From the NCBI GenBank assembly GCA_030278955.1, contig JAOANR010000004.1:52765459-52829458 (forward strand): 64,000 nt of DNA, given 5' to 3'. The notes beneath the pieces are model-generated. The model was not told the origin of the DNA and did no database searches. It saw nothing but the letters and a program-made list of their open reading frames with translations. The stretch's first letter is position 1. Each line of letters opens with the position of its first letter. This DNA comes from Hygrophila difformis. Taxonomy: Eukaryota; Streptophyta; Magnoliopsida; Lamiales; Acanthaceae. Made by a program: the position numbers and the translations under genes. This document shows, piece after piece, positions 24,734 to 64,000 of this stretch.

Positions 24734-24738
24734 AAAAG

Positions 24739-28000: not shown

Positions 28001-28115
28001 GTCGTAGAAATAAAATTGAAATTATAAATAAATAAATATTACCTCCAACGATAATCTTTATAGATTTGAAACTTCCTCCGGCAGCACTTCCATAGAGTTA
28101 TTCGTGCTGATAACG

Positions 28116-39948: not shown

Positions 39949-41888
39949 TAATATAATGTGTGTGTGTGTGTATATATACATGAGAGAATCATTACCATTA
40001 TCATATTGATATAGGGAAAATGTATGGATGTGTCATTTAGTGTGTTTAGCAAAAGTGAGGTATTAATGAAAGGCAACCTTCAGGTAGGTGTGTGTAAAGT
40101 AATACAGGTAGACAAAAGCTGGTGCGTTCTGAACTACCTTTGATTAATAATTGTCACTTGAAAATCATAACCCTGATATAAATTTGGAAACACAAACACA
40201 TCAGATATTTTTCACAAGCTGACTAATACAGTAATAACTCATCACTCCACTGTAATTCCAACTGGCGAATCAAATGTAAATGTACTACAGTTAAAATGTC
40301 TTCTTTGGGCAACTGATTTTAGTTGTCTATCATGCAGAAAGGAAATATATACATCTATATATATATATATATATATATATATAATGCACTCACCACACAG
40401 TACACACGTGCAGGGTTAAAAAGTAGATCTAATCCAAGTTATGTAAAATGCAAAACCCTAGTGGGGACTAAGAAACATAATAATGCTTTTGTTATTTAGT
40501 TAGTTGTGGGTGGGAGGGATTAATTAAGCCGAAAACCATTACATCCAAAATGGCTTCTATTTTTTGGCATAGTCATGATGGCAATATTTAGACTTGGTGG
40601 TTGGTTGTGCTTTTATTATATTTGGTGCTCCAACATGCACTACAATACGTTATAAAAAGGAAAAAAAAAGTAAATTGTGCAATATACACCAACATATATA
40701 AAAAAATATACTACTAATTTGTATAAAGGCTTCTAGAAGGTTTGGAGGAAAATGAAATGATGGAGAGTGTGGTTGTAGTTGGATGTGGGCTTGGGCACTG
40801 AATTCTTTCTTATAGCCTAGCTTATGGTGCAAGTTTTAGTGTAGGGAGGTGAGGTTGGTTGAATAGACCCTATTTGGGGTTGTTATATCATACCCCATTC
40901 CCCATGTCCAATTTTCATATGCTTCATCATCTATTATGATCCACCAACTAGTAATTTTCACTGCCCACCCCCAACTTCTATTTAATCCGCAATGACAGAG
41001 GGACAAGAATGTTCATGGGGCCAAAATTATTTTATTGTTTTTTTTTTTTTTTTTTTTTTATAAATGTAAAGGGAATAGTTAAGCATCTACAGATGGTGTC
41101 TGGGTCTACAATATGTTTATATAGAGCGGTAGACAATAATCTGGAAACATAAGATGTGAGCCAACTCATGTGCCTTGGGAACAGACAGACAGACACAACA
41201 AGACTCATGTGGGCATTGTCTTGAAAACACTCTTACCTACTTCTTTTGGTTTACTTCCCTACATTCCATGTGAGATCCACTTCAAAACTAGGCTGTGTGT
41301 CAACTCACCCTTACTAGGTGGGCAATCATAGATATAATAACAAAATTTTAGATTGAATTTCCTGAAATTCCTTCAATCATTCATCTCTATTTAGTCATGC
41401 TATTTCCAGAGAGAACATTGGTGTATCACAGCTCAATTATTCTCCAATACGCACGTGTATGAATGGGATCTAATATGCACCTATGTTATGCAGTGTGTGG
41501 ATCAGGATTAAGATAAGCAAGAAACATATATGAGCAATAGGGCCATTTTGCTACGTCTTCCATATGAATCATATTTTCCATAGACGATAAGAGGAATGTG
41601 TATATATTAGTGTAGGTTAATTACCTTGTATCAATCATAGGCCAGTGTCGCAGAGAAAATTCCTTCTGTCCTAGCAAACTGTAAATCTGTATGACAACAA
41701 AGTCACCTCCCATCCTTGATTAGCACAAAAACCAAATTATAAAGCATTTGATATATCTCACAATTTACTGGATTTAGTGCAGATAACCAAGGATTACGTA
41801 ACTGCCAAAGAAACACTTTCTGCCAGGATGATGCCGCCTTTCCAGAGTTTCAGGCTGTGCCTGAATTCAGAAAGCTTTAATGTGGAGT
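39949..41888. other. Intergenic DNA between MITEs and Gypsy element
   Basis: Contains a TG/TA microsatellite (39956-39977), an AT microsatellite (about 40356-40382) and a T run (41039-41059). No gene recognised. The last five bases (41884-41888, GGAGT) are the left target duplication of the Gypsy element. Confidence 0.5.
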
Positions 41889-42548
41889 TGTTGGGGCCAT
41901 ATGGAATAGTGGGCCGCGAAAGAGCTATTGGGCCATAAGACATGGGCCGGAAGAAAGAGGAAGTCCAAAAAGAAGAATGGGCTCGAGATTGGCAAGGCCG
42001 AAAGCACATAGTAAACCAAGGGAAGAGATCGGAGCTGATGAAGATTTCGGCCGAAATGGGTGGAAATAGCCGAAACCAAAACAACCGAATCGAAGAGAGA
42101 AAGAATTCGGCTCAGAGGAGTTAGCCGGAGAGCGGTTATTCCAGCTCCGGCTATAAATAGGGGACGACACACTCAAAATCAGGGAGATCAATCCAACCCC
42201 CAAATTACCTTTATCAATTTTAATTCCTTGTTATCTTTACTGCTTTCTTTACAGCTTTCCTTTACAGCTTTCCTTAGAATCTAGCCTAGTTTGTAGCGGT
42301 TACCACTTCCAAATCCACCGTTGCTCCTTAGCAGCTGGTAGTTTGGTTCTCTGTCTTTGGTGAATTCCGCCGTTGTTTCTTAACAACAGGCAGATTCTCC
42401 GTTGTATCGTGTTATTGTTGGTCAATTCAAGGAAGATTCATTCAATTGTGGGCGCATTATTGTTAATTCGAACCCGTAATCGGTTTGATCCTTTTCCGAT
42501 AGCCTCCCTTGAGGAGAAAAAGGTCCTTGGCTGCACCAGAGCCAAACA
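41889..42548 (+). repeat. 5' LTR of the Gypsy element
   Basis: 660 bp, TGTTGGGG...AAACA. TATA box CTATAAATAG at 42151-42160. Identical by reading to 53810-54469. A TGG-starting primer-binding site follows after one base (42550 on); I do not name the tRNA. Confidence 0.95.
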
Positions 42549-42572
42549 GTGGCACGCCCAGTGGGACGCGGA

Positions 42573-45500
42573 ATGGCGTTTGAACAAGCAACTCCAGCAG
42601 CAAACACGGCGGCGAGGACCGACTTGCCGCCGATTCAGGAAGAACGCGCACCAGAAGCCGGAGAATTCCCCCCAGGGTTCCCCGGACCATCACATTTCCA
42701 TAATCAGGAGTTTTCAAACGATGATTTAACCCCGCGATTCCGAGATCAGGTTCAATTTATGGTGGAGGCGGCGGTTACCAACTCGGTTCGCCAAATCGAA
42801 GGAAATATCCTGGCAGCAATGCCAGCCATGTTTAGAGCCGAAATTGCGAGGAGTATGTATCCGATGGGAGCGCAGCAAGCTCCAGTGGCGCAAAATCCAC
42901 CACAAAATCTTCACAATTTTCAGCAGCAGGCCTTTAGGCCGCCAGGAGGGCATGGAGCTCGGCCTTTTGTTCCTCCGCAGCAGAGGTACGATCAGCAGCA
43001 GAATCAACCGCCTCAACCAGTAGTTCAACCGCCTGCTCCAGTGGTTCAACAGCAATACGCACCACTTCAGCAGAATCCACCACAACTGGTTGATAGAGAG
43101 CTAATTGCCGAGATTATTCGCACACAGTTTGGGAATCTCATCGGCCAGGAGAATAGGCCGATGTATCGGAAACCTTATCCGGATTACATCGAGGAGCAGT
43201 ATCCACTGCCTAGAGGGGTGAAGGTTCCAGATTTTAACACTTTTTCTGGAGAAGTCGGCCGCTCTACCATCGAGCATATCGGCCGATTTACAGCTCAGTG
43301 TACCAGAATCGCGCAAAATGATTTTCACAAGCTAATATTGTTCAGTTTGTCATTAACTGGCCCAGCATTCGAGTGGTACATTAATCTGCCAGCGGGATCG
43401 GTCAATACTTGGGCCGAAATGGAGCGGTTATTCCATGACCGATTCTATAATACTAGTCCGGAAGTTTCGGTAGTTGATCTGACGTCAACCAAACAGAAGG
43501 CGTCGGAATCGGTTACTGAATTCATGGAGAGATTTTATGCAGTGAAGGCTCAGGTGAAGACAATGCTGCCTGAGCATGAATATATTCAAATTTTAAAGCA
43601 GAATTTGAAGTTTGCCATCAAGGACAGATTGATGGTAACAAGACCGAGGACGGTAGCCGAATTAACGGCTGAAGCAATAAGGATGGAGACATATTTGGCG
43701 GAACAGGCGGCTTTCAAATCAAGCCGAAGTCAAAGTGGAAGGTCACAACCTATCCAGTCAGCTGCCTCATTTGCTGAATCTCTGGATAGATGTGAAATTC
43801 AGGAAGAGTACAACGCGGAAGACGTTCCTGCATTAGCCGAAGTCGCGAGGGCAGAGTTAATCATAAAAAAGCCTATGACTTGTCCAGCACTTCGGCCAGC
43901 AAGAGGCAAGGAGAAAGAAGGAGGAGATGAATCTCAAAGGTTTTACTCTTTCGACTTGTCACAAATGGACGAAATATTTGATTATTGTCAGAAGAACGGA
44001 TTGCTAGAGTTTAAAGGAAACCATCCACAGCCTACCAAGGATCAGTTGGAGGCCGGATGGTGCAGATTTCACGGATCAGCCACTCATTCCACGGCCATTT
44101 GTGGGCATTTTAGGAAGCTGATTCAGAAACATGTTGATGATGGGAAGCTGAAGTTCCCAGAAAGGCTTATGGCAGTCGATAAGAATCCGTTCCCAGCTGC
44201 CAACATGGTGATGGTGCAGCCCAACCAGAATAAATCGGTGCATGACCGATTGGGGGATCAAACATCATCTAGCAAGAGCTCTGTGCACGATCGGCTTGGG
44301 GATCAGCCATCGGCTCAGAAGTCAGGAGTATGGAAAAGGCTAGGATCTCCGAAGGGAAAAGAGAAAGTTACAAATGTCTTTGACCGATTGGGGAACTATG
44401 AGGTAAAAGAGTGGATCAAGCAATCGGAGAAACATCAGGAGATCGAGGTTGGAGATAGGAGTGAGAGACCGACGTTGAAAATCATAACCAACGGATGGGA
44501 CTCAGAGATGAAGTTAACAGCCGATAAGCAGAATGGAAAGACTGTGATACAGATCACAGTCCCTGAAGAAGCAGTTAGCCCCGAAATGAAAAAGCTTAGA
44601 AGGCCACCATCAAATACTCAGGTAGGCCGATGGGTCCGAAACTCTCCAGAAAGAAGGCATTTCGATCAGCGCCGACATGACCATTCAGCTTGGAGGGCAG
44701 AGGGGAGGAAAGTCCCAAAAGGAAAGGGATCATATCGTACTTTCAAACGAAGAATGCAACGGCTTAAAGCAGCTGCTGCTTCTGAGCAAGAGGAGTATGA
44801 TATGATGCATATGGAAGAGGACTTCCCTGATGACTGTTCGTTCTCGGGAGGACGAATACTCAATAGGGTATTTTCCGCTCGTTTGAGGTCCGAATCAAAA
44901 GAAGAGAGGAAGCCGAAAGAAAGACAGGATCGGCTGAAGAACAAGACTGAGTTTCGGCCGAAAGTAGTTCAGCCAAAAGCTGAAAGTGAGCAGCCGAAAG
45001 AGGAATGGAAGCCTAGACCAGTCCGAACCAGGGAGTGGAAGCCGAAGACAACTATCATTCCGAATAGTGATACACCCCCTGTTGGGCAATTTAAGTTCGA
45101 CTTCGGATCTAGCGCGAATATGGTGACAGTAACCACCGAAGAGAAAGAGGAGTATTGGTCGGATTCCGAACCAGCTGTGGTTTTCTGTCAAAAGGATGGA
45201 GAATACTATGGTGATGAAGAACCCATAGTGGATTTTTGTTTCGATAAACTTGAGGTATTTCGGCCGGAAGCCGAAATAGAGAAATCTTTTGAGGAAGGAT
45301 ATAAGGCATTCGTTCCAGAAGCTCAACCAGGTACGATTTTGCCTCCAACTGCGCAAATGTCCCAGCATGTGAGGCCTTTATACGTTAAAGGTTGGGTCAA
45401 TGGGAGACCACTAAGAAGAATGTTTATCGACGGTGGGGCCACAGTTAATATCATGCCACTATCCACGCTAACGAAGATAGGCCGCTCGAAGGAAGATTTA

Positions 45501-45935
45501 CTCCCTACGAGAATGAAGGTAATGAGTTTTGTGGGGGCTCAAACCGCGGCCGAAGGATGTATACTGGCGGATGTCACGGTCGGAACAATATCAATTCCGA
45601 CCATGTTCTTTGTGGTGGATGCAGAAGTTCCGTATGCGGCCCTATTAGGCCGATGCTGGATTCATACATCCCGATGTTTGCCATCAACGCTTCACCAGAA
45701 AGTATGGTTCTGGAAGAAAGATGGCACAGTAGAAGAAGTGGATGGAGATCAACCTCCATTTCCAGTCAGCTCAGCCGGACGAATTGATGCGGTGTTATAT
45801 GAAGAACCGATTCAACCATTCCTAGCAGTGGTAGGGGATCGGTACCCGCAGGTGATCGAGTGTGATTGGACAGATTTGGGGTTTGAAATCAGATACCAGG
45901 CCGATGAACGGCCAGTCGAAGAAGAAAGTAAATGA
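42573..45935 (+). CDS. gag-pro: Gypsy ORF1: Gag and aspartic protease
   Basis: 1120 aa structural polyprotein of the retrotransposon. A Gln/Pro-rich N-terminus leads into the retrotransposon Gag domain (about residues 225-345, with FEWYINLP and RFYNTS), then WCRFHGSATHSTAICGHF (about 490-515), the place of the zinc-knuckle-like motif of Tat Gags. A charged Lys/Glu/Arg-rich region follows. Near the C-terminus is a retroviral-type protease with the active-site loop FIDGGATVNIM (about 951-962) and ALLGRCW. The frame is open back into the LTR, but the first ATG after the primer site is 42573 and is taken as start. The stop overlaps the start of the pol ORF (ATGA). The repeated SVHDRLGDQ unit (about 555-620) is a small internal duplication. 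Confidence 0.93.
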   Translation: MAFEQATPAANTAARTDLPPIQEERAPEAGEFPPGFPGPSHFHNQEFSNDDLTPRFRDQVQFMVEAAVTNSVRQIEGNILAAMPAMFRAEIARSMYPMGAQQAPVAQNPPQNLHNFQQQAFRPPGGHGARPFVPPQQRYDQQQNQPPQPVVQPPAPVVQQQYAPLQQNPPQLVDRELIAEIIRTQFGNLIGQENRPMYRKPYPDYIEEQYPLPRGVKVPDFNTFSGEVGRSTIEHIGRFTAQCTRIAQNDFHKLILFSLSLTGPAFEWYINLPAGSVNTWAEMERLFHDRFYNTSPEVSVVDLTSTKQKASESVTEFMERFYAVKAQVKTMLPEHEYIQILKQNLKFAIKDRLMVTRPRTVAELTAEAIRMETYLAEQAAFKSSRSQSGRSQPIQSAASFAESLDRCEIQEEYNAEDVPALAEVARAELIIKKPMTCPALRPARGKEKEGGDESQRFYSFDLSQMDEIFDYCQKNGLLEFKGNHPQPTKDQLEAGWCRFHGSATHSTAICGHFRKLIQKHVDDGKLKFPERLMAVDKNPFPAANMVMVQPNQNKSVHDRLGDQTSSSKSSVHDRLGDQPSAQKSGVWKRLGSPKGKEKVTNVFDRLGNYEVKEWIKQSEKHQEIEVGDRSERPTLKIITNGWDSEMKLTADKQNGKTVIQITVPEEAVSPEMKKLRRPPSNTQVGRWVRNSPERRHFDQRRHDHSAWRAEGRKVPKGKGSYRTFKRRMQRLKAAAASEQEEYDMMHMEEDFPDDCSFSGGRILNRVFSARLRSESKEERKPKERQDRLKNKTEFRPKVVQPKAESEQPKEEWKPRPVRTREWKPKTTIIPNSDTPPVGQFKFDFGSSANMVTVTTEEKEEYWSDSEPAVVFCQKDGEYYGDEEPIVDFCFDKLEVFRPEAEIEKSFEEGYKAFVPEAQPGTILPPTAQMSQHVRPLYVKGWVNGRPLRRMFIDGGATVNIMPLSTLTKIGRSKEDLLPTRMKVMSFVGAQTAAEGCILADVTVGTISIPTMFFVVDAEVPYAALLGRCWIHTSRCLPSTLHQKVWFWKKDGTVEEVDGDQPPFPVSSAGRIDAVLYEEPIQPFLAVVGDRYPQVIECDWTDLGFEIRYQADERPVEEESK

Positions 45936-48900
45936 TGGAGTCACAACCGAATCAAGCGACCGAGTTCGAGTCGGCCGAACTCGGAATTTCAGATGACAGA
46001 GCAGGATGGAGCGATTTAATAGACGCAATTCCAAAGCGAACGCCGGATTTCAAAGCTCAAGACCCCTTGAAAATGGTCAATGTTGGTACAGACGAACACC
46101 CGAGGGAGATCCCGTTGAGTGCGAATCTTGATCAGCAGATGACAAGCCGATTCAAGGAGGTTCTAGTCGAATTCAAGGATTGTTTCGCATGGGACTATAC
46201 AGAGATGCCAGGATTGGAGCGGTCGATTGTAGAGCACAGACTGCCTATTAAAGAAGGATTCAGGCCGCATAAACAGCCGGCCAGGAGGGCAGCGCCCGAA
46301 ATAGTCCCAAAAATAAAAGAAGAAATAGAGAAATTGTTAGCGGCCGGGTTTGTTAGGCCAGCTAAATATGTAGAATGGCTATCAAATATTGTTCCTGTAA
46401 TAAAGAAGAATGGAAAATTGAGAGTTTGCATTGATTTCAGAAATCTTAATATAGCCACTCCAAAAGATGAGTATATGATGCCTATTGTTGACTTGTTGAT
46501 CGATTCGGCCGCAAAACAGGGGATGCTATCTTTTATGGATGGATATTCAGGATACAACCAAATTTTTATGGCCGAAGAAGACATTCACAAGACTGCATTT
46601 CGGTGCCCTGGCGCCATAGGGATATATGAATGGGTGGTGATGCCATTCGGATTGAAGAATGCAGGAGCCACATACCAGAGAGCCATGAACTATGTTTTCC
46701 ATGACCTCATAGGCGATTGTGTTGAAGTCTATATTGATGACGTCATGGTCCGATCCAAGGATATCGAAAGCCACTTGAACGATTTGCGGAAGGTATTCGC
46801 GAGAATGAGGCTGCATGGAGTCAAAATGAATCCAGCCAAGTGTGCTTTCGGAGTACAGGCAGGAAATTTTCTCGGGTTCCTGGTACATAACAAAGGAATA
46901 GAAGTTGACGCGAACAAAACCCGGGCCATCCAAGAAGCCAAACCTCCACATGATAAGAAGAGTCTACAAAAGTTTCTTGGAAAGATCGGTTTTCTGAGAC
47001 GATTCTTGGCAAATGCGGCTGGAAAGTCGAAACCACTAACCGATTTATTGAGGTTAAAGAGGGAAGAGGAGTTCAAATGGGGAATTGACCAGCAAAAAGC
47101 CTTCGAACAATTGAAGCAGGATTTGATGAATCCACCTGTGTTGGTTCCTCCAATTTTAGGACGGCCCTTGAAGTTGTATATAGCAGCAGCCGAAGAATCT
47201 ATTGGAGCATTACTGGCGCAAGAAGACGATGAAGGAAGGGATCGGGCGATTTACTATCTTAGTCGAATCCTAAGGGACGCCGAAGTAAGGTACTCGCCGA
47301 TTCATAAACTATGTTTAAGTCTTTATCATGCATGCCAGAAATTAGAATATTATATTCAGCCAAGGCAAGTGATAGTAGTAGCTTCGGTTGACATAGTTAA
47401 GATTATGATGAATGATCCGGTCAGTAGCCGAAGAATGGCCAAATGGGCCATGAAGTTAAATGCGTACGATTTGAGATATCAACCTTTGAGGGCTATGAAA
47501 GGACAGATTGTAGCCGATTTTCTGGCTGATCATGTGATGCACCCGATAACCGATGACATCGATCATCAGGGTCGGCCGAAAGAAGTTGGAGAGATAGGAA
47601 TTGTATACTTGCAACCATGGGTAATGACATTTGATGGTTCTAAAGCCGCTTCAGGAGTTGGAGCAGGGTTTACCCTACAAACGCCGGAGGGCAGGATATA
47701 CAAATATTTCGTGCAACTACCAGAGTCATATACGAACAACCAAGCCGAATATAAAGCGTTAATTTCGGGATTACAACGATTGATAGAAGAAGGAGTCAGA
47801 GCAATCATTGTCAAAGGGGACTCGCAAGTAGTTGTCCAGCAACTGCTAGGTGATTTTTCGGTTAAGAGTTCGCAGTTGATTAGATTGTATGAAGAAGCGG
47901 TTACTTTGTTAGAGGAATTTGATGAGGTGTACATTGAATACATCCCGAGAGAAAAGAACGAAGAAGCCAATGAATTGGCTCAACATGCAGCTAAATATCG
48001 GTTGATGCCGATAGCAGGAAATGTAGAAGTGCGTTTGGCCGAAACAGAGAAGGCCGAATGGATAAAAAAGATAGCACAGATATTAGAAGATCCTTCGGAG
48101 GCTAATCCAGCCGAAAAACGGAAAGCGATGGACTACGTCATAATAGGAGGATTATTATTCAAGCGTGCTATTGATGGAATATTGCTCAGATGCGTCGGAG
48201 AAGAAGACGCTAGAAGGGTAATGGGAGAGGTTCATGAAGGAGTATGTGGTGCACATCGGGCAGGAAAGTCGATGAAGTGGAGCATTATTCGGCTGGGATA
48301 TTATTGGCCGAATATGGGTCCTGATTGTGAAAGATATGCAAGAGGATGCACCGAATGTCAAAAGCATGGGCCGATTCAGAAGTTACCGGCCGAAGAATTG
48401 CATATAATGATCAAACCATGGCCATTCAGAGGATGGGCCATGGACATCATAGGAAAAATTCATCCCTCGTCGTCGAAAAGACATGAGTTCGTGCTAGTAG
48501 CAACAGATTACTTCACGAAATGGGCCGAAGCTCAGGCGTATGTCAGTATTTCACAAGAAGAGGTGATTGAGTTCATTAAGAGACGGTTGATTTATAGATT
48601 CGGGATCCCACAGACGATTTTAACAGATAGAGGGACTGTATTTGTGGGAGAAAAAGTCAAGGCCTTTGCGAACGAATACGGGATAAAAATTGTGCATTCG
48701 TCACCATATTACCCGCAAGGAAATGGACAAGCAGAGGCCACAAACAAACAGCTAATAGGAATCATAAAGAAAATGATTGAAGATCAACCAAGAAAATGGC
48801 ACGAAAAGTTATCTGAAGCACTGTGGGCTTATCGAAATGCCAAAACCTCAGCTACTGGGTTCACACCATTTCGGCTGACCTATGGAATGGATGCAGTATT

Positions 48901-49330
48901 GCCAGCCGAAATAACAGTGCCGACTTTGAGAACAAGCCAGGCGGATTCAATGTCAGCCGAACAGTATGATTGTGCAATGAAAGATGAGTTATTGGAGATA
49001 AATGCCAATCGAGTGCAGGCTTTTGAGAATTTGCAGAAAAATAAAGATATTGTGGCCGATTGGTACAATAAGCGAATTCGTCTTAAGCGATTTGAAGTTG
49101 GAGACTTAGTTTGGAAAGTTATATGGCCGCCTAAGCAAAAGGATGGCCGATTAGGTAAGTGGAGTCCCAATTGGGAGGGACCATTTATTGTTCATACAAG
49201 ATTACCGAATGGAGCGTACGTGTTGGTGGACGAAAATGGTGAGCAGATGTCAAATCCAGTTAATGCAAGATACATGAAGAAATATTATCCATCAGTGTGG
49301 GATCAAACATTAAGCGATGCGAAAAAGTAA
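45932..49330 (+). CDS. pol: Gypsy ORF2: reverse transcriptase, RNase H, integrase
   Basis: 1132 aa polymerase polyprotein. Reverse transcriptase spans about 130-330 with CIDFRNLN, the catalytic VYIDDVMV (about 266-273) and FLGFLVH. A first RNase H-like domain follows (about 400-540, ending KGQIVADFLADH). A second, archaeal-type RNase H begins MTFDGSKAASGVGAGF (about 565-690, with YTNNQAEYKAL and KGDSQVV). Integrase has the zinc-binding H-x-H/C-x2-C region (HEGVCGAH...CTECQKHG, about 766-810) and the DDE core (MDIIG, TDRGTVF, GQAEATNK; about 835-935). No stops or frame breaks. ORF2 is in a different frame from ORF1 and its ATG shares four bases with the ORF1 stop, so it needs re-initiation, frameshifting or splicing to be made. 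Confidence 0.95.
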   Translation: MMESQPNQATEFESAELGISDDRAGWSDLIDAIPKRTPDFKAQDPLKMVNVGTDEHPREIPLSANLDQQMTSRFKEVLVEFKDCFAWDYTEMPGLERSIVEHRLPIKEGFRPHKQPARRAAPEIVPKIKEEIEKLLAAGFVRPAKYVEWLSNIVPVIKKNGKLRVCIDFRNLNIATPKDEYMMPIVDLLIDSAAKQGMLSFMDGYSGYNQIFMAEEDIHKTAFRCPGAIGIYEWVVMPFGLKNAGATYQRAMNYVFHDLIGDCVEVYIDDVMVRSKDIESHLNDLRKVFARMRLHGVKMNPAKCAFGVQAGNFLGFLVHNKGIEVDANKTRAIQEAKPPHDKKSLQKFLGKIGFLRRFLANAAGKSKPLTDLLRLKREEEFKWGIDQQKAFEQLKQDLMNPPVLVPPILGRPLKLYIAAAEESIGALLAQEDDEGRDRAIYYLSRILRDAEVRYSPIHKLCLSLYHACQKLEYYIQPRQVIVVASVDIVKIMMNDPVSSRRMAKWAMKLNAYDLRYQPLRAMKGQIVADFLADHVMHPITDDIDHQGRPKEVGEIGIVYLQPWVMTFDGSKAASGVGAGFTLQTPEGRIYKYFVQLPESYTNNQAEYKALISGLQRLIEEGVRAIIVKGDSQVVVQQLLGDFSVKSSQLIRLYEEAVTLLEEFDEVYIEYIPREKNEEANELAQHAAKYRLMPIAGNVEVRLAETEKAEWIKKIAQILEDPSEANPAEKRKAMDYVIIGGLLFKRAIDGILLRCVGEEDARRVMGEVHEGVCGAHRAGKSMKWSIIRLGYYWPNMGPDCERYARGCTECQKHGPIQKLPAEELHIMIKPWPFRGWAMDIIGKIHPSSSKRHEFVLVATDYFTKWAEAQAYVSISQEEVIEFIKRRLIYRFGIPQTILTDRGTVFVGEKVKAFANEYGIKIVHSSPYYPQGNGQAEATNKQLIGIIKKMIEDQPRKWHEKLSEALWAYRNAKTSATGFTPFRLTYGMDAVLPAEITVPTLRTSQADSMSAEQYDCAMKDELLEINANRVQAFENLQKNKDIVADWYNKRIRLKRFEVGDLVWKVIWPPKQKDGRLGKWSPNWEGPFIVHTRLPNGAYVLVDENGEQMSNPVNARYMKKYYPSVWDQTLSDAKK

Positions 49331-50323
49331 AGATTTTATTGCATGAACGAATAAGTACAAAGAAGGTGCTACTTCGGCCGAAAGCGGCGTCGATAGCCCG
49401 AAATTACAATATACAAGGGAAACGTCCTGGCCTAAAGCGGCTAGAAAGAGGCAGAGGCAAATGGGATCTGAAGTGGTAGATGGCCAACATTCATTCCCAA
49501 GCCCAGATTCTTCTAGTCGGCGGGAGAAGAGATGGCTGTGCCACGAAAGCCAACTCCCAGACCAGGAAGAAGAAAATTTTAATTTGCTCCAGCAAGGATA
49601 CCCCCTTCTTAGCATTGAAGATAGGGATGAAATTCGAGGGGTATGGCCTTCGGAGCTCAGAAAATAATTCGGTCCCATAGAAAGGCGCGATTATTATTCG
49701 ACCGCCCAAGACTTTGGGACCGATATTAGTAAGATTACGACGGGTCACAACAACAAGAGGGGATAGGGCAGAGCCCAAGTATGACCGTCGGAATACATGT
49801 TGAGAAAAGTGTGAGAAGATCCCAGTGTGTATGAAGATAATAGTGAGAAGATTAGTTGAACTCGCGTTGCATATAAAAGGGGTTTTCGGTTTATAAGTAA
49901 AGGACCAACCGAAGAGCCAACGGGCCAAGGGGGCCAGGGAGGAGAAGGAATTAAAAGCATCGAGATGTTCATGACTGGTGTTTGCTAGATTACGGAACAA
50001 GAAGTGAAGAGGAGTTGGTATTTATAGAGAAGAATGGAGAGACGTCAGTTACAACAAAAAAAAAAAAAAAAGGAAACGTAAAGAAGAAAGCATTGATTAC
50101 GGAAGAAACGCTTCAAGAATCCCAATAAAGCTGTAGAAGATAATATGGTATCAGAAAATATCCTTGGGAACAGGGAAGAAAAAGGCAAAATAAGTCCGCA
50201 AAAAGACAAACATTTTATAATGGGCCGATTAGGTATACAGGGCGAATCGGCCAAAATGATAGCCAAGAGTACAGTAAAGGAGGATACTATTACATCCAAA
50301 AAAGAAAATAACAACAACAAAGT
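49331..50323. other. Spacer between pol and the antisense gene
   Basis: About 1 kb. Open frames up to 169 codons on the minus strand (50000-49491) are not recognisable. An A run lies at 50053-50071. It probably holds the convergent 3' ends of the sense and antisense transcripts. Confidence 0.45.
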
Positions 50324-53300
50324 TCAATCCCCACTCAAATCATAAGCGATGTCTTCACCGAAGTCACTGGTAAGAGGAGCGGCCGAAGTACTAGTAGAGG
50401 TCGGATCCAATACCGATTGAAACTCCCGATACGATCGAGCTTCAGCTTCGGCCGAAACCAGAGGATCATCGGGTTGAGACGAGAAAAGCTTGTCGGTAGT
50501 GTCTTCGAAAGAATCACGTGGAGCATCTAAGAAGAGAAATTAAAAGAAAAGGAAGACATAATCATCGAATATCGTCAGGATCAAAAGAACAAATTAAATA
50601 TTACCAGAATTCTTCGGATTATCCCCTGAAGGAGGATTGATGAGAAGATTATCAGAAGACATTGAAGTATTTGGCGCCGAAGGAAGTTGAATCGCGACAG
50701 CACGAATCCGATCAAGCGCCTTCTGAGTGTCTGACCACAAGTCGCGGAAAACATTAAGGACGGTATCACTGAAGGATAATCTCAAAGCAAGGTAGTCTGT
50801 TGTCTCTTTAAGACTAACAAGTTTGTCCCGCGGAGCTTGAGCAGATTTGTGGAGCTCTTTTATAAGTCCTTGCAAGTGAGCCGATTCTTGGTCAACTTCG
50901 GCTAAGGCATTCTTCACACCTTGTGCCTCATGTTGAAGACGGCTGATTTCATAGTCAATGGCAGAGAGGCGATTCAAGTAATTGGATCTGAGGCCATCAT
51001 TGGCCGACAATTGACTCATATAAGAATGGTAGTCAGAAGCATGTTTATCAAATTCCTCCCTGTGAAGGGTAAGGGAAGTATGCTCATCTTCAAGGGTTTT
51101 GCGAAAAACCAAGAGACTGTGAAGCTCCATGTCTATCCGTAATAGACAAGTGAACATTGCATCAACGACTTTGGACAAGCCAGAGACCAGAAGGTCTTGA
51201 GGAAAAGTCCGCTTGATATAAGAGATAAGCAATAGGATGGGCCTGGTCTGAACGGAGAAGGCGTTGGGTGATTCAGAAATCAAGAGATCAAGCTTATCCA
51301 AGCAGGCTTTAAAAGAACGAGGAAGTTCCGACGAAGAAGAAGCAAATGAAAGGGAAAAGAAATCATCTAGAACAGCCTTATCCGGGAAAGGTGAAGGAGG
51401 ATTAACATTGCCAACGGCCAATTCTCCCAGCCGAGTGTGTACAGGGGAGGGGTTAGGAATAGAGCCAATGGAAGAAGAGGGAAGAGCTACGGCTAAAGAA
51501 GTAGTCGAAATGGGAACAGCCGAACCAGTGTTGCCACCCTCAGGCGCTCGAGAAGTCAATCCCAGCCCCATATCGGCCGAAGGAACAGGAGTGGTACTTG
51601 AAGTGATAGCCGGGTCCTCATCAATAGGATCAAGGGCCGTAGATGAGGGATTAGGTGATTCAGAAGGGCCGGAAGAGACGGTGACTCGAAGAGCCTAGAG
51701 GAAAAAAAAAAAAAAAGGAGAGGGAGACAAATATTAAAAGGAAGATGGTGAGGAAAAAAATAAATATAGAAGAAAAGAACGGCATGAGACCTGATCAGCA
51801 GACGAGGCTGAACCCGGAAGAGGCGAACGGGCCGAACGTCGCAGCGTCTTGGGTGCCGGTTCTTTTTTCGACTTCCCTGAACCAGAAGTAGCACGTTTGC
51901 GTTTTCCGGAAGTAGCGGGAGCAGACGAAATACGCGGATGAGGGGGAAGAGAGGAAACATCATCTAAAGCAGCCCCTGCAAGACGAAAGAAAAAGGGAAA
52001 ATGTGAGAGAAGTGTACGATACACAATAAAAAGAAAGCCGAAAGACTTACTAAGTAAAGGAAGTAGAGGGTCATCCTCTTGAGAAGAGCAGGAGTAATCA
52101 GGGGCTGAACCAACAACCGAAAACATCATAATACCTGGAAAGCCGCGAGAGACAAGGAGGCTCTGCAAGTTAGTGCCAAAATTAGCATAAGAAAGAGCTT
52201 TTTCCCACCAGGTATCGAAACGCTCAGTTGAAAGACCAGGACGGATGTCGAAGGAGCGAACTTCAAAGTTGCAAATCCGGAGGGCCCAAATACGACAGAG
52301 ATTTCGGCTGTTCTCAGAGCCGAATCCTTTGAAGGATTTGCTGTATCGATTCGGGTCCCCATAGAGAGGAACAACCACATCCTGAACAAAGCCGAATTGA
52401 CGGCTAACTAAGTGAGGATTGTAAACCTCAGAAGGGATAGAGTGGTCAGGGGGGACGAACAACGAACAGTTGAAAATGTGACGAGGAATGATACAAGCAT
52501 TCCAGACTTGAGCGAACGCCTTTGGAAGAGGTCTACCGAAAGGGGGAGTGTTAATAGCCGAAACCCAACTATCCGGAGTGCCAGAATACAGGTGGCAGGA
52601 AGAAGGACTAAGTGGGGATCGGCTCATAAAATAGTAGATCCATTGTTCAGAGCGCATTTCGGGAAACCGAACCCCGAGAAGATCGTTGGCGGAAGGATGG
52701 GTAGTCTCGAAGGGTTGAGGTTCCAAAAGGGACATATCCCTGAAATGCCATACCAACCAGAGGTGAAGGAACCAAAGAGGACCATGAGACCGGCTAGAGT
52801 GGCCGTCAGCCCATCCATAAACCAAGGAAGACATGCCAGAATATAGATGTGCCAAGAAGTAGTCGGCGAGAGGCAAATGATTCTTTTTCATAAGAGCCTT
52901 GGCCAGAGGGTAGGTCTCAAAAATAACATTCTTGGCAGGGGCGCACCAAAAGAATCGGCTGAGGAAATGCATCATAAAAGCCACAGATTCGTCCTCAGAG
53001 AATTCGGCCTTATCCTCACGATACTTGCTAATCCATGAAGCAAAGGTGAGCCCAGAAACAAAACCGGTGTTCTTTGTATTAGGCTTGTCGGAGTCAGTAA
53101 CCCCTAAGACAGGCTTTCCAAGAGAAGGCAAGTCCAGAAGAAGCTTAACATCCTCGATGGTTGGAGTCATCATACCCCATGGGAAACAGAAACAGTTGAT
53201 GGATGGGTTCCAGAAGCAAAGGAGGGCCTGAATATAATTGTAAGTAGTAGGAAAGGGTTGAGTACTCAGCTTAATCAGGTGAATAATGCCAGAGTCAGTC

Positions 53301-53596
53301 CAACCTAATCCGCAATGAGGAAGGGCCCTGTCGTACCAAGCAACATGTTCCTGGGTCACCAACGGCCAAGTACTGAGAGGGCCGAAAAGCTTGACAGAGA
53401 AATAGTCCGAAAACAAGGGGATCGTCTTCGATTCCCCAAAGAGAACAGAAGCAGAAATCGTGGCCTCTGCTGAAGTCGCAAGAGGCCCAAGAGTAACGAG
53501 GGCATCATCAATAAGACGGAGCGAAGAAGTTTCAGCTAGGGAATCTTCAACATCTTTGATTTTTTGAGAGGAAGGGGAAAGAGTCGGTTGCGCCAT
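50324..53596 (-). CDS. Antisense gene in Gypsy element: plant mobile domain plus coiled coil
   Basis: Convergent gene inside the retrotransposon. Proposed exons: 53596-52051, 51975-51791, 51694-50605 and 50526-50324. All three introns are GT-AG, phases agree, and the product is about 1007 aa. The N-terminal 470 residues resemble the plant mobile domain of MAIN/MAIL1-type proteins: WYDRALPHCGLGW, LLCFWNPSINCFCFPWGMMT and TIEDVKLLLDLP are diagnostic. A basic patch KRKRATSGSGKSKKEP (about 540-555) could be a nuclear signal. The C-terminal part has a predicted coiled coil (about 775-880, e.g. LEDEHTSLTLHREEFDKH). A TTTATAA box lies on the minus strand near 53661-53668. Plant-mobile-domain genes are known passengers of Ty3/Gypsy elements, in which their role is unclear. 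The domain call is strong; the exon joins are inference. Confidence 0.8.
51976..52050 (-). other. 75-bp frame-neutral intron of the antisense gene
   Basis: GTAAGT donor (52050) and CTTGCAG acceptor (51976) bound exactly 75 bases with no stop, so retention would add 25 hydrophobic residues and keep the frame. Confidence 0.65.
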
Positions 53597-53794
53597 CGAT
53601 AAAGAGGAAAAAAGGGCGAGAAGACGAAGGGAGAGTAAATAAGCAGGAAAGAGGGAAATGGTTATAAAAACAAAGTAAGGGCAAACGAAAAGGCGTAGAA
53701 GAACGTGACCGGATATTAAGGAGGAGTTAGCGCACGAAGAGGAAGAGAGAGAGAGAAGTTACTTGGGCTCCTTCGCATGGAAGCAATTCGCCCA

Positions 53795-53809
53795 AGTAAG
53801 GAGGGCATC
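53795..53809 (+). other. Polypurine tract of the Gypsy element
   Basis: Purine-rich AAGTAAGGAGGGCATC abuts the 3' LTR and is the expected primer site for plus-strand synthesis. Confidence 0.7.
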
Positions 53810-54469
53810 TGTTGGGGCCATATGGAATAGTGGGCCGCGAAAGAGCTATTGGGCCATAAGACATGGGCCGGAAGAAAGAGGAAGTCCAAAAAGAAGAATG
53901 GGCTCGAGATTGGCAAGGCCGAAAGCACATAGTAAACCAAGGGAAGAGATCGGAGCTGATGAAGATTTCGGCCGAAATGGGTGGAAATAGCCGAAACCAA
54001 AACAACCGAATCGAAGAGAGAAAGAATTCGGCTCAGAGGAGTTAGCCGGAGAGCGGTTATTCCAGCTCCGGCTATAAATAGGGGACGACACACTCAAAAT
54101 CAGGGAGATCAATCCAACCCCCAAATTACCTTTATCAATTTTAATTCCTTGTTATCTTTACTGCTTTCTTTACAGCTTTCCTTTACAGCTTTCCTTAGAA
54201 TCTAGCCTAGTTTGTAGCGGTTACCACTTCCAAATCCACCGTTGCTCCTTAGCAGCTGGTAGTTTGGTTCTCTGTCTTTGGTGAATTCCGCCGTTGTTTC
54301 TTAACAACAGGCAGATTCTCCGTTGTATCGTGTTATTGTTGGTCAATTCAAGGAAGATTCATTCAATTGTGGGCGCATTATTGTTAATTCGAACCCGTAA
54401 TCGGTTTGATCCTTTTCCGATAGCCTCCCTTGAGGAGAAAAAGGTCCTTGGCTGCACCAGAGCCAAACA
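53810..54469 (+). repeat. 3' LTR of the Gypsy element
   Basis: 660 bp, identical by reading to 41889-42548. TATA box at about 54072-54081. Followed by GGAGT. Confidence 0.95.
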
Positions 54470-54474
54470 GGAGT

Positions 54475-57400: not shown

Positions 57401-57838
57401 GGAAATGAAGCTTGGCATTGATCTAGTGGCAGTTTGGTGACCTACTCATAATATGCCCGGTCCTGCAGATAAGCAACAGAGTTTGAACATACAATAGCAT
57501 ATCGAAGAAACTAAATAATTGTGATGGTTCTGATGTTTTAATTTCAACTGACACAGAAACATTTATTGAATGATTAATATATAAAATTTCAAAAAAAAAA
57601 AAAAAAAACAAAAAAAGGAGAATTCCAAAAGAGATTGATCCCTGAGCTAAAAAGCAGGTGCTAATGATTGTACCACGAGACTCAAATTCATCATATTCAC
57701 TCCTGCATTTTGAAATTTCCTTGAAGATGATTGGAGTAACAATATAGAATCTAAGCCATATAGAGACTTAAACAGAGACAAGCAACTCAGCTGCAACCAA
57801 ATAGATTCAACACTTCACACCAGTATCCCTAAATTAAT
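54475..57838. other. Intergenic DNA between Gypsy and Copia elements
   Basis: Holds a C2-like gene relic (54907-55160), a cluster of TGGGC/GCCCA motifs (55552-55625), short CATATACATA-type repeats (56210-56310), and A/T runs (57160-57195, 57590-57609). No intact gene was recognised. Confidence 0.5.
54907..55160 (-). pseudogene. Fragment of a C2-domain protein
   Basis: The minus strand reads FGKLLAGKKWAFGDAFKVFD and DNWVMTDGLLFK, then after frameshifts ETLGYVDFNLADVFNQK and RINEKFSLTDSNGSKLSCSL with QW, then stops. The LGYVDxNLADVxN...RINEKxxLxDSxNGxxxxxLQW order resembles the C-terminal C2 half of plant lipid-binding proteins that I recall, but I cannot name the family with certainty. At least two frame changes indicate a relic, or the last exon of a gene broken by insertions. 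Confidence 0.4.
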
Positions 57839-58784
57839 TGTTGGATTGTGGCCCAATTTCAGTAGCCCATATTAGGCCCATGAAGGCATTTGCTGAGGCC
57901 CTATTTTTGATCCTATACTAATACTCCCTCCCAACCGAAAAACAATAACCCTTCATTCTCTTCCTCCTGTTTTGTAGCAGCGCCCCCCCTCTCTTTTCTC
58001 CTTCTCTTCTCAGTTCCCCTCCACTCTCTTTTTGTGTCTCCTTCACATCACTTAGGATAGATTAGTTCTACATCTTGAGTGAGTGTGTGAGAGTGTTGAT
58101 AAGTGAAAGGGGGTTGGGTTGATGTGAGCTTCTTCCCTTTTAGAGCCTTGGTGGCTAGGTCGCCGGAGAAGTGGGTTTCCGGCGAAGGGATTGAGAGGCC
58201 GAGGGTGTTCGTGTCGCTGCGGAGGGGCTGTGATAAGGGTGGTGGCGTGCACAGCGGAGCTGTGGCGTTGGTGGCTGTCCGGCAGCTTCTGGCGGTGGTC
58301 CGGCGGTGGTCCGGCAGTGGTCCGGCGGTGGCCGGCAGTGGTCCGGTGTGGTGGTGTCGGCAGCGCCTTGGTGGTGGTTCCGGCGGAGCTTGGTGTTCTT
58401 GTAGAGTGTGTCTCATTTGGGAGCTCCGAGCCTACATATTAATAGATCTTTATAGATCTATTTGGTATCTCTATTTCCTTTTAATATTAGTTGTTGTATT
58501 TTTCTTGTTTCTACTAACCATGGTGTAGATCTAAGAAGTGGACAACAAAGAGACTAAGACTGGACTGTTGGAGAAAGAAAACGACGGAGACGAATCTGTC
58601 CGGAGAGACCGAGCCAGATCGCGACTGGCATGGACTTCAAAGGAAGTTTCTTGATCGTTGTTTCTAATTTTAGTATTTATGAGAGAATCATGTATTGGTG
58701 AGGCTAAAGCCTTGTAAATCCCATAGTTAGGTCTTTTGGGTTGTAATAGAATAGGTTAAAACAGGGTACCGGGTTTACCCAACA
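57839..58784 (+). repeat. 5' LTR of the Copia element
   Basis: 946 bp, TGTTGGATTG...CCCAACA. Contains GGCCCA motifs at the left, a pyrimidine-rich tract (57950-58050) and a G-rich array of GGTCCGGCGGTGGTCCGGC-type units (58290-58345). Confidence 0.93.
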
Positions 58785-58785
58785 G

Positions 58786-58797
58786 TGGTATCAGAGC
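58786..58797 (+). other. Primer-binding site, tRNA-iMet type
   Basis: TGGTATCAGAGC one base after the LTR is the standard Copia primer-binding site, complementary to the 3' end of initiator methionine tRNA. Confidence 0.95.
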
Positions 58798-59414
58798 CAT
58801 AGGCCACTTTGGGACGGGGGTTGGTCAAGGCACCCCCGCAAGGTAAAATAGCTTGATCCATCTTTTTTACAGTTTTAAGATAATATTCTTTTTCTGGATT
58901 GTTGCTTGAAATATGTGATTTTTCATGCTTGGAGCTTTGTGCTTTAAAATCTGGAAATATTATGCTTAAACTGTGTTTTTTATTCTCTGCATTTTGTTGT
59001 GCATAAACTGTTTTGTGTGGTGTTATTAGTGAATTGTGCATTTTCTGTGTTATTGTGCTTTGTGTGCAAAATTTGTGGATTTGAAATTTTTGGGAATAGA
59101 AAATCTGATTTCTTATTCCCTGAAAAAGCAGATTCCTGAAAATCTTGAAAGTTGTGATTTTTTGGGAATATGTGAAAATCAATCCAAATTTTGAAAAGTG
59201 ACTGTTTGGACTATTGGGCCTCCCAAAAATTGATTTTGGGCCTGCCCAACAGTTGGGTCAATTCTGAAAATTTTTGGGCATCCAAAATTAATTTGGGTTT
59301 GCTTCAAAAAATTAAAAGGATGTTATATGCTATAGGGTGGAAGTAATTGTGGTTAGTTGGCTAAGTGTTTGAGCACTTGTTTGCTCATTCTGATTAAAAA
59401 GGCCAAACACAATA
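58798..59414 (+). other. Copia 5' leader
   Basis: About 600 bases of non-coding leader between the primer-binding site and the gag-pol ATG, T-rich, with GGGCC motifs near 59217-59250. No gene seen. Confidence 0.7.
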
Positions 59415-62400
59415 ATGACCTCCACCTCAAATAGCATAGTTCTTTTTAATGGAAAGAACGACTTCAGCATCTGGCAAGTTAAGATGCGTTGTTTTCTTGT
59501 CCAACAAAGAGTTTATAATGCAATTGATCAACTCTTTGATAACGAAGTTACTGAAGCTAAAAAGACTGAAGTAGATGAACTTGCTAAATCTGCCATAATC
59601 TTAAGTTTATCTGATGCTGTCCTTAGAAAAGTTAGTGATTGCAAAACAGCCAAGGACCTTTGGGAGAGGCTGTCTGAACTGTATGCTGAGTCATCTTTGT
59701 CTTCTAGAATATTCCTGCTTGGTAAATTTTTTAAATTTAAATTGGATATATCTAGAGACTTAGATGAGGGTTTAGATAATTTTACTAAACTGGTTCAAGA
59801 CATTAAAGCAACTGGTGATAAGCATATAGATGATTATGTGCCTATAGTGTTGTTGAATGCCATCCCTGATAGTTATTCTGATGTAAAATCTGCTATCCAA
59901 TATGCTAGAGATGATTTGACTTTAGATCATGTGATTAAGAGTCTAAAGAACAAAGAACTTGAAATGAAGAATTCCTCTAAGCATTCTGATAAGGTGTTTA
60001 TGACTAGGGGTAGGTCTTGGAAAAATAGTAATCACCAACAGCATAACGATAGGGGCAGAAGCAATGCTAGGGGTCAGTCTAAATCACATAGATCTCAGTC
60101 AAGAGGTAAACATGATAAGAAATGTTACAACTGTGGTAGAAAGGGCCATTTCATTAAAGATTGTAGACTCCCTAATAAAGAGAAAAATCAAATTGATAAT
60201 CAGAACAATGAGGTTAATGCTGTGACTGATGTAGCAGTTAGGCATGATGAACTTTTGATGGTTCATGATATGAATTGTTTTTCTGATGTTAATATGGCTA
60301 AAGATGTTTCTAAATCTGTGTGGTTGTTAGACTCAGGGTGCACCTCCCATATGTCTCCTCATGTTGAATTATTTGATTCCTATCAACCTGTTAAAAATGA
60401 CTTTGTGTTCATGGGTAATGACAATAGATGTCCTGTCTTAGGTATAGGAAAAATTGTCTTACAATTTGAGAATGGGACAAGATTCAGCCTTGATTCTGTG
60501 AAACATGTGCCTGATTTGTCTTACAATTTGATTTCTCTTGCGACCTTGCAGAAGAAAGGTTTAGAAGGGAGAATTGGTAATGACATGATTAAAATGTTCA
60601 AAGGGAATTTGATGTTGTTTAAGGCCATTATCAAGAATAATCTTTTTGTGGTCTCTAATGTGGTTAATTATGCTTTTGCTGCTAATTCTAGTTCTAGTTC
60701 TGATAAGGTTAAACAGAATACGCTTTTGTGGCATGCTAGACTAGGGCATATGAGTGATAAAGGCATGAAATTTCTGAAAGATGCTGGTTGTTTAAAATCT
60801 GATTTATGTGAAGTTGATCTTTGTGAATCATGCTTAGCTGGTAAACAACATAGAGTGTCTTTTAACTCTTCATATCCTGTTGGGATAAAATCCACCCGTG
60901 TACTTGAGTACATTCATGCTGATGTGTGGGGTCCATCTTCGACGCCCACACATGGTGGTAGAAGATACTTCTTATCTATCATGGATGATTTTTCTAGAAA
61001 AGTTTGGGTATTTCTCATGCAAAACAAATCTGATGTTTTTGGGAACTTTAAACACTGGAAAGCTTTGATTGAAAATCAAACTGGTTTAAAGATTGGTACA
61101 CTTAGGACAGATAATGGGCTTGAATTTTGTAATCACCAAATGGATACTTTGTGTGCTGAATCTGGTATTAGAAGGCATAAATCTGTTCCTTACTCACCTC
61201 AACAGAATGGGGTAATTGAAAGAATGAACAGAACTTTATTAGAAAAGGTTAGGTGCTTGATGGCACCTACTGGCCTTTCTAAGAAGTTCTGGGGTGAAGC
61301 ACTGATGACAGCTGCTTACTTAGTTAATAAATCACCCAATGCCCCTTTAAATGGTAAATCTCCTGATTCTGTCTTTTTTGGTAAACCTGTTGATTATGGA
61401 CATCTTAGAGTGTTTGGATGTTCAGCTTTTGTGCATACTAGTAATGATAAATTGGACCCTAGAACCAAGAAATGTATTTTCTTAGGTTATCCTGAGGGAA
61501 TTAAGGGTTACAGGTTGTTTGATAGATCAGAGGGTGGTTTTAAAATCATTGTTAGTAGGGATGTGATTTTTAATGAATCTGAATTTCCTATGAAAGTTTT
61601 TGAGAATGATAGTACTTCTGTTGAGGTGGAGTCTTCTTCTGTGGAACATTCTGTGAATTTGCCTGCTCCCATTGTTGTGCCTAATGTGATTGAAAATGCT
61701 GAAATTGCTGATCCCAATTTACATGTGAACGAGGAACCCATAACTGATACTCATGATATTGATACCCATGATATTGATGAAGGTGGAGCTCAGAATGAAG
61801 AAATTATTCCTAAAAATGATTTGAATGATCTTAGTGATTATATGCTAGCTAGGGATAGAGCTAGAAGAGTAGGTAAAACTCCTGCTAGGTTATCTGATTT
61901 TGTTCTTACTACTTATGCTATGACTGTGTGTGAAGAACTTAATAATCTAGAGCATAAATCATATTCTGAAGCTGTTAAGTCTAAACAGGCTAGTAAGTGG
62001 CTTAGTGCTATGAATAAGGAAATTGAATCATTACATAAAAATGAAACATGGCTGTTGATTCCTAGGGCTGAAAATATTTCTGTGATTGACTGTAAATGGA
62101 TTTTTAAAATCAAACAGGAAAGTAATGGTGAGAGGTATAAGGCTAGGCTTGTAGCTAAGGGCTTTACTCAGAAAGAGGGTGTAGATTATTCTGAAATATT
62201 TGCACCTGTTGCTAAATTCACTACTATTAGAGTAATGCTTGCCTTAGTTGCTCATTTTGATTGGGAGCTTATACAAATGGATGTTAAAACTGCTTTCTTG
62301 CATGGTGACATAGATAAGAAAATTTGTATGAAGCAACCTGAAGGTTTTGTGGATAAAACCAAACCCAATCATGTATGCCTGTTGAAAAAAGCTTTGTATG

Positions 62401-63503: not shown

Positions 63504-63667
63504 TGTGTGCATGTCTCTTATGTTTTTGATGCATGTCAGCATGTGTGAATACTTTGTGTATATTGTTGGTATGTGACTGGGAAGTGAAGGTACCAAAGGC
63601 GATGACGAAAACTGCCCCAAATTGAGCACACTCGTCACTAAGTCTGAAAGTGGGCCAAGGTGGAGAT
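63504..63667 (+). other. Copia 3' untranslated region and polypurine tract
   Basis: Short non-coding stretch. Purine-rich CCAAGGTGGAGAT directly before the 3' LTR is the plus-strand primer site. Confidence 0.75.
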
Positions 63668-64000
63668 TGTTGGATTGTGGCCCAATTTCAGTAGCCCATA
63701 TTAGGCCCATGAAGGCATTTGCTGAGGCCCTATTTTTGATCCTATACTAATACTCCCTCCCAACCGAAAAACAATAACCCTTCATTCTCTTCCTCATGTT
63801 TTGTAGCAGCGCCCCCCCTCTCTTTTCTCCTTCTCTTCTCAGTTCCCCTCCACTCTCTTTTTTGTGTCTCCTTCACATCACTTAGGATAGATTAGTTCTA
63901 CATCTTGAGTGAGTGTGTGAGAGTGTTGATAAGTGAAAGGGGGTTGGGTTGATGTGAGCTTCTTCCCTTTTAGAGCCTTGGTGGCTAGGTCGCCGGAGAA
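63668..64000 (+). repeat. 3' LTR of the Copia element (partial)
   Basis: First 333 bp, matching 57839-58170 with one C-to-A change and one extra T. Expected to continue to about 64,613. Confidence 0.93.

Follow-up and report, generated by a model that had tools for sequence, protein, structure and literature searches.

Why does a retrotransposon carry a long, spliced gene on the strand opposite to its own gag and pol? In this work we have examined this question in a 64,000-nucleotide stretch of the Hygrophila difformis genome (assembly GCA_030278955.1, contig JAOANR010000004.1, positions 52,765,459 to 52,829,458 of the forward strand), referred to below as the window, which contains a complete Ty3/gypsy long terminal repeat (LTR) element of about 12.6 kb with a minus-strand gene for a plant mobile domain (PMD) protein behind pol. 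We found that the spliced antisense protein is under purifying selection and that a short word, RGCCGAW, recurs throughout the LTR and the three coding genes of the same element. Taken together, this suggests that the element may mark and recognize its own DNA by means of a dispersed word.

An earlier note on this DNA had joined two long minus-strand frames through three frame-keeping GT-AG introns into a gene of about 1007 codons, and this structure holds: the four exons listed in Table 1 join into 1007 codons and a stop. Between the ATG and the terminator at 50326, frame 0 is interrupted only by stops at 51736 and 51697 in intron 2 and at 50596 and 50542 in intron 3. The model has two weak points: intron 1 has no in-frame stop, so that its retention would also preserve the frame, and the intron 3 acceptor has in-frame rivals of equal or better score. 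A chance open frame was considered and rejected, since the longest stop-free run between pol and the 3' LTR is 674 codons, against a maximum of 310 in 2000 dinucleotide shuffles, and since the gene is constrained among sister copies. We compared eight further copies of the element in this genome (L027-L034), whose identity over the gene is 92-98%; like the five pol and five gag copies used below, they were hand-picked from the best-scoring lists, and damaged copies are therefore under-represented. No exon indel was found in any of the eight, GT-AG was kept in 24 of 24 introns, and the ratio of non-synonymous to synonymous substitution rates (dN/dS) against the window copy was 0.131-0.182. Hence the spliced protein is under purifying selection, and the splice model is supported because the evolution of the exons across copies fits it; intron 2 is 73-80% identical among copies, gaps counted. 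The ratio of non-synonymous to synonymous differences (pN/pS), pooled over the copies, was lowest at residues 103-490 (0.108) and 748-913 (0.152), followed by residues 491-747 (0.26), 914-1007 (0.31) and 1-102 (0.34). Frames filled with stops were not found in the sister copies, one of which has a single stop, at codon 974, and exon 1 was stop-free in 80 of the best 84 scored places, the window included. The identical LTRs and open frame of a single young copy are by themselves no proof of selection.

The three parts that the earlier note had assigned to the protein were all recovered. A profile search matched PF10536 to residues 103-312 with E=1.6e-30 and 106.9 bits (Pfam gathering score 34.9), inside Gypsy LTRs, and this PMD was the sole Pfam report for the joined protein at E<=0.001; TRP28 (PF04195) was not reported in the joined protein at that threshold, nor in exons 1 and 3 at E<=10. 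The basic patch is present at residues 540-567. At the C-terminus the best heptad contrast was matched by none of 300 shuffles and a single-sequence structure model gave long helices (block pLDDT, the predicted local distance difference test, up to 87, mean 53), while matches to coiled-coil-type profiles were weak and all below their cut-offs. The gene product is thus probably a spliced, nuclear protein, dimeric via its coiled coil, and the stretch with a TATA-like TTATAA 71 bases upstream of the antisense ATG is likely its promoter. A perfect 10-bp inverted repeat (TTACTTGGGC / GCCCAAGTAA) is found at 53759-53799, between the antisense gene and the 3' LTR. Using the full-length protein as query we found no relatives in a protein search; exon 1 found P0001 and P0002, and an alignment query added P0003 from Prunus armeniaca, whose C-terminus shows no significant similarity to the window protein and no heptad signal. 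A PDB sequence search gave no credible relative (best E=0.12, an antibody) and the alignment query gave none there, and searches of viral_contigs with the PMD and pol, and of genome_contigs, returned nothing.

The word came to light in a hexamer count made in search of promoter elements, in which 11.9 kb of the element gave 54 occurrences of GCCGAA and the remainder of the window gave 8. Around the core, GCCGA/TCGGC, the flanks are a purine in 80 of 90 cases and A or T in 79 of 90, which gives RGCCGAW. As a 5-mer the core reaches z=10.0 against synonymous shuffles, the highest z of any 5-mer in 200 shuffles being 4.46. The 5' LTR and interior together hold 74 RGCCGAW sites (mean 6.7 and maximum 14 in 100 dinucleotide shuffles), and the other 51.4 kb of the window hold 11, with 9.0 expected. 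Shuffles that preserve protein and codon usage never reached the observed counts in 1000 trials for any of the coding genes (gag-pro 25 against 4.81, pol 22 against 4.54, antisense gene 17 against 3.83), and neither did the strictest shuffles, which also keep codon-border dinucleotides, in 2000 trials each (12.1, 8.7 and 6.5 expected). Under the latter the bare core is less extreme: its observed number is reached by 6 of 2000 shuffles in gag-pro, by 0 in pol and by 6 in the antisense gene. All nine thirds of the three open reading frames (ORFs) are enriched. The noncoding parts were compared with dinucleotide shuffles: the LTR has 5 sites against 0.39 (0/1000), the gap between pol and the antisense gene 4 against 0.58 (3/1000) and the introns 1 against 0.03 (32/1000). 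The density along the element is even (Kolmogorov-Smirnov p=0.40; 3-10 sites per kb), and the window's Copia ORF is free of the word, with 0.29 sites expected.

The word is also sharp. Among the 15 words that differ from the core by one base, ACCGA alone is raised (1.64-fold), other CpG contexts are not raised in the element, and after RGCCGAW is masked no further word stands out there. It occurs in several codon phases, on both strands and in the LTR. Codon choice follows it: of the 17 alanines that precede a GAN codon in pol, 14 are encoded by GCC, compared with 20 of 79 elsewhere (p=2e-5); for gag-pro the counts are 9 of 18 and 12 of 66 (p=0.012). Even the amino acids are shifted, as the dipeptides that can encode the core are in excess in each of the three proteins, where amino-acid shuffles matched their number in 6, 21 and 5 of 1000 trials; in the Copia protein they are not (175 of 1000). 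In the three ORFs the core lies 56 times in the plus and 23 times in the minus orientation, with about 22.2 and 9.4 predicted. Both orientations are therefore equally enriched, about 2.5-fold, which fits a double-stranded DNA site, and the palindrome TCGGCCGA occurs 8 times, in excess, as expected for a dimeric DNA binder.

Is the word maintained in other copies of the family? The gene span holds 18-19 sites in the eight copies (18 in the window), the pol stretch 23-26 in five (22) and the gag stretch 22-25 in five (25). With the three genes pooled, 9 of 95 four-fold sites inside the word are variable, compared with 295 of 1356 outside (p=0.0038); for CpG four-fold sites only, the figures are 5 of 47 and 51 of 209 (p=0.05). 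A count per cell gives 4 of 212 varied silent sites in the word and 394 of 3912 outside, and overcounts because the copies share ancestry. Whole 7-mers were kept more often than other CpG-centred 7-mers, at 0.87 against 0.76 in gag, 0.87 against 0.72 in pol and 0.91 against 0.68 in the antisense gene; 115, 61 and 0 of 5000 random control sets, respectively, reached the observed retention. The conservation at silent sites is clear in the pooled test only.

What could read such a word? A duplex word this sharp, prone to palindromes and maintained at silent sites, should have a sequence-specific reader. We favour the PMD protein, since it is the element's one unassigned, nuclear- and dimeric-looking, strongly constrained protein and since VANC21 offers a model, its binding to YAGTATTAY in VANDAL21 leading to methylation loss along the element (PMC5735166). 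The antisense gene would then make a protein with a PMD, basic patch and dimer-forming coiled coil that the element needs. Its antisense position would let it keep its introns through the RNA cycle and would allow it a promoter of its own beside the 3' LTR. The element, for its part, would carry RGCCGAW as an address throughout the LTR and the three coding genes. Recognized by the PMD protein dimer on the element's own copies, the word would keep these accessible, by anti-silencing or self-activation, much as VANC acts on VANDAL. We put this forward tentatively, as an explanation that may well be wrong. Its boldest form, in which RGCCGAW is a self-identification code written into synonymous sites and the antisense protein uses it to locate the element's own copies and lift their silencing, is rather unlikely.

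Several of our results weigh against the PMD protein as reader. The main one comes from a second Gypsy family of the same genome (18 loci, L009-L026), in which a PMD frame lies antisense to pol in 18 of 18 loci: the density of RGCCGAW is 0.9-1.7 per kb there and 6.2 in the window element, so that a PMD gene and a sharp word do not always go together, which speaks against a fixed pair of the two. No comparably sharp word was found in this family, where 6 of the 18 loci were compared with a Markov model and 3 of 18 with synonymous shuffles. In L019 the top words are GCCGCC (z=5.5, maximum of 60 shuffles 5.48) and CATCA (4.9, maximum 4.55), in L011 they are ATGATG (5.2, maximum 4.87) and CATGA (4.6, maximum 4.46), and in L013 no word exceeds the maxima of 60 synonymous shuffles. 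As a sharp word, RGCCGAW therefore belongs to the family of the window element and is not required by an antisense PMD gene. The core GCCGA is mildly raised in three sister loci (20, 27 and 23 against 14.4, 14.5 and 13.8 in synonymous shuffles), which might reflect a weakened or fading version of this system. Taken gene by gene, moreover, the conservation at silent sites is weak, at p=0.12 for gag, p=0.48 for pol and p=0.04 for the antisense gene. For the last of these, the choice of reference copy moves p between 0.016 and 0.115, and control cores, on small numbers, range over 0-42%. The 5' flank of the antisense gene has no RGCCGAW (0.14 expected), the fold model of exon 1 with the PMD is unusable (pLDDT 31.5), and the VANC word lies in noncoding tandem repeats, whereas the word described here is evenly spread and mostly coding.

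Could the word be a true protein site with another reader, such as a host transcription factor or chromatin protein, the integrase or Gag, the PMD protein serving separately, for example as a MAIN/MAIL1/PP7L decoy? We regard this as nearly as likely as recognition by the PMD protein. The sister family, with its PMD and no sharp word, fits it well, as do the five sites just upstream of the LTR TATA box, and the DOWN motif tied to MAIN/MAIL1 targets, CATGCAGTTT, is unlike RGCCGAW (PMC9899485). A promoter factor, on the other hand, leaves unexplained why the word is evenly spread over gag, pol and the antisense gene.

Two further explanations of the word have a small chance each. It might serve on the genomic RNA as a signal for packaging or processing that Gag reads, and the plus orientation is indeed commoner (52 sites against 22); yet the shuffles predict the same strand ratio from composition and codons, palindromes are in excess, and the antisense gene and LTR carry the word too. 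Just as improbably, it might be a by-product of mutation or codon-context bias that has no reader, given that it contains a CpG and that the composition of the element differs from its surroundings. This artefact, whether of CpG or of codon pairs, is not favoured by the neighbours of the core, the masking, the strict shuffles or the dipeptides, and it would sit badly with the unraised CpG contexts, the several codon phases, strands and LTR in which the word occurs, and the lower variation of silent sites within it.

As for the gene, it is quite improbable that the antisense transcript works as RNA only, with double-stranded RNA limiting transposition. Such a role was proposed for antisense ORFs in general (PMC7264820) and PMD genes give phased small interfering RNAs (phasiRNAs) in tea (PMC10673657), but the dN/dS values and conserved splicing show selection on the protein; an RNA role and a selected protein may coexist.

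The earlier note had offered selection or very recent capture as the reason for the long open frame, and of these selection stands and capture does not. That a host PMD gene was captured recently and is passively carried, as the open frame and identical LTRs of the window copy might suggest, is scarcely credible, and we rejected it given the near-identical places found genome-wide (below), the purifying selection, a host-like PMD only about 25% identical over the domain, and the sister family, in which a PMD 27-29% identical to the window PMD has the same antisense layout at the corresponding position, Gypsy-borne PMDs being known besides. The pol of the sister family has 67-69% DNA identity over aligned pieces of 227-2008 bases. 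The host-like matches L002 and L003 are about 25% identical over 327 residues, and L004 32% over only 118. In a tree of 14 PMD rows, built without named references, the transposon-type PMDs stand apart from L002-L004; the key split (79/79) is weak and rows L001 and L005 are uninformative. The PMD matches of the genome form groups, namely near-full host-like genes, a group with a near-constant 12-14 stops across the domain, perhaps from an intron inside it, and an open 113-bit group, which is the sister Gypsy family. Elsewhere, Gypsy-encoded PMDs were described across angiosperms (PMC5418596, PMC6317226, PMC9289625): there are Gypsy-only PMD-A clades (PMC5418596), PMD was present in 57% of Ogre elements (PMC6317226), and among the atypical domains of plant Gypsy consensuses it ranked first in frequency (PMC9289625). 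All of this speaks for an old partnership of PMD and Gypsy.

To judge from its sequence, the element belongs to a large Tat-type Gypsy family that was active recently. It is a complete insertion, because its two 660-bp LTRs, with TG...CA ends, are identical, as the earlier note had it, and are flanked by a 5-bp duplication, GGAGT. In pol, Pfam places reverse transcriptase (RT) at residues 158-316, RT_RNaseH at 411-512, RVT_3 at 567-686 and H2C2/rve at 758-928; a second RNase H between RNase H and integrase is the order given for Ogre/Retand (PMC6317226), and assigns the element to the Tat lineage at that level. The gag-pro and pol ORFs overlap by 4 nt (ATGA, within 45926-45940). Because the pol frame is closed just upstream and the overlap contains no XXXYYYZ slippery heptamer, translation of pol may rely on reinitiation. 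Across the genome (915 Mb, 246 contigs), a search with RT gave 150 scored places, the best of 21410 candidates and with the window's own copy included, all printed as 99% identical. Exon 1 gave at least 84 places with 94-100% identity, again including the window and the best of 3357 candidates. Two more places were printed as 100% identical to exon 1 (G000:C1:27060387-27061931 and G000:C11:47255224-47256768), as would follow from very recent transposition. In the U3-like part of the LTR, a stretch of 40 bases (41910-41948) contains three copies of TGGGCC, a site II-like motif, and TGGGCT lies at 41978. The purine fraction is 0.57-0.77 in the interior parts of the element and 0.50-0.52 outside; this carries little weight, being consistent with a long residence of the antisense gene and equally with T-rich codon use.

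Table 1. Coordinates of the element, its genes and the antisense PMD gene in the window
Feature	Position	Strand	Remarks
Target site duplication GGAGT	41884..41888; second copy 54470-54474	.	observed on both sides
5' LTR	41889..42548	+	TG...CA; TATAAAT at 42152; five RGCCGAW sites 41996-42112
gag-pro ORF	42549..45935	+	open; 25 RGCCGAW sites
pol ORF	45932..49330	+	open; RT, RNase H, second RNase H (RVT_3), integrase; 22 RGCCGAW sites
Antisense PMD gene	50324..53596	-	4 exons, 1007 aa, behind pol
Exon 1	52051..53596	-	indel-free in 8/8 copies
Intron 1	51976..52050	-	75 nt, GT-AG
Exon 2	51791..51975	-	joined-frame model and sister copies
Intron 2	51695..51790	-	96 nt, GT-AG
Exon 3	50605..51694	-	joined-frame model and sister copies
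Intron 3	50527..50604	-	78 nt, GT-AG; acceptor least certain
Exon 4 and stop	50324..50526	-	acidic tail
Plant mobile domain match	52661..53290	-	PF10536, residues 103-312
Basic patch (KRKR...), resembling a nuclear localization signal	51821..51904	-	residues 540-567
Predicted long helices / coiled coil	50687..51184	-	residues 748-913
Likely promoter stretch of antisense gene	53597..53809	-	TTATAA 53667-53662; without RGCCGAW
3' LTR	53810..54469	+	same sequence as 5' LTR
RGCCGAW span, 5' LTR to antisense gene start	41996..53386	.	74 sites (79 with 3' LTR), even density

The rest of the window contains a second LTR element, of the Copia type, at 57837-64000, with an open ORF of 1362 codons and end repeats (57837-58170 and 63666-64000) that are 99.4% identical, the last of which extends to the window end. 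At 24735-28452 two direct 341-bp copies, 99.7% identical and 3.4 kb apart, are possibly the LTRs of a young element without a long ORF. A minus-strand exon at 38170-38721, about 3 kb from the Gypsy element, resembles by eye the C-terminal part of an R2R3-MYB repressor, and another at 15236-15700 the end of an amino-acid permease. Scattered repeats of about 140-280 bp, 69-88% alike and in both orientations, lie between 5334 and 39693 (near 5334, 5600, 10790, 11939, 12724, 21924, 22288 and 39426) and are possibly miniature inverted-repeat transposable elements.

Why would a link between the gene and the word matter? In the cited literature, as far as its consulted parts go, neither the Tat antisense genes nor the PMD has an established molecular function, and here an antisense protein under selection comes together with a sharp DNA word of the same family that is suited to an immediate binding assay. 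The earlier note had speculated that the gene interferes with host silencing; the element-wide RGCCGAW, absent from that note, makes this testable. If the PMD protein does read the word, retrotransposons would own a sequence-specific self-recognition, and the most abundant class of plant transposons would have an anti-silencing system independent of VANC. Sequence-specific recognition of DNA would then be the molecular role of the PMD, and a DNA-recognition module of such elements may have its relatives in host MAIN/MAIL1. Irrespective of the reader, it is unusual that synonymous codon choice maintains one word in three genes. In the open-access literature searched we noticed no dispersed coding-sequence word in an LTR retrotransposon (titles and abstracts) and met no three-intron antisense PMD gene with measured constraint, and we consider these two to be the new parts of this work.

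Antisense ORFs behind pol in Tat elements, PMDs in Gypsy elements, and the promoter and nuclear product of Grande gene23 (as cited in PMC7264820) are known already. The additional ORFs of Grande (gene23), RIRE2 and Retand, with TRP28, have the same place and orientation as our gene, to which the three introns and measured constraint are particular. The LTR, interior and pol-3' LTR sizes of the window element fall within the Retand range (PMC11963269). Retand differs in that TRP28 (PF04195) is found in 97% of surveyed recent clusters of that study, the main text of which, in the part consulted, does not mention PMD. The PMD-A proteins and the extra ORFs (eORFs) of Ogre are likewise PF10536 proteins carried by Gypsy elements, though the consulted parts of the two papers (PMC5418596, PMC6317226) do not describe a word like RGCCGAW, and Ogre has an intron-like gap between gag-pro and pol where the window element has its short overlap. 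Host MAIN and MAIL1 (PMD-C), linked to transposable element silencing together with PP7L (PMC7156037), belong to the same PMD family but are host genes outside transposable elements, whereas our gene lies between intact LTRs and is repeated in many near-identical places. VANDALs are DNA transposons with another word, to which their VANC protein binds, whereas in our LTR retrotransposon binding of the word is predicted. What the two have in common is a protein encoded by a transposable element and a short word specific to the very family that encodes it (PMC5735166, PMC10398659).

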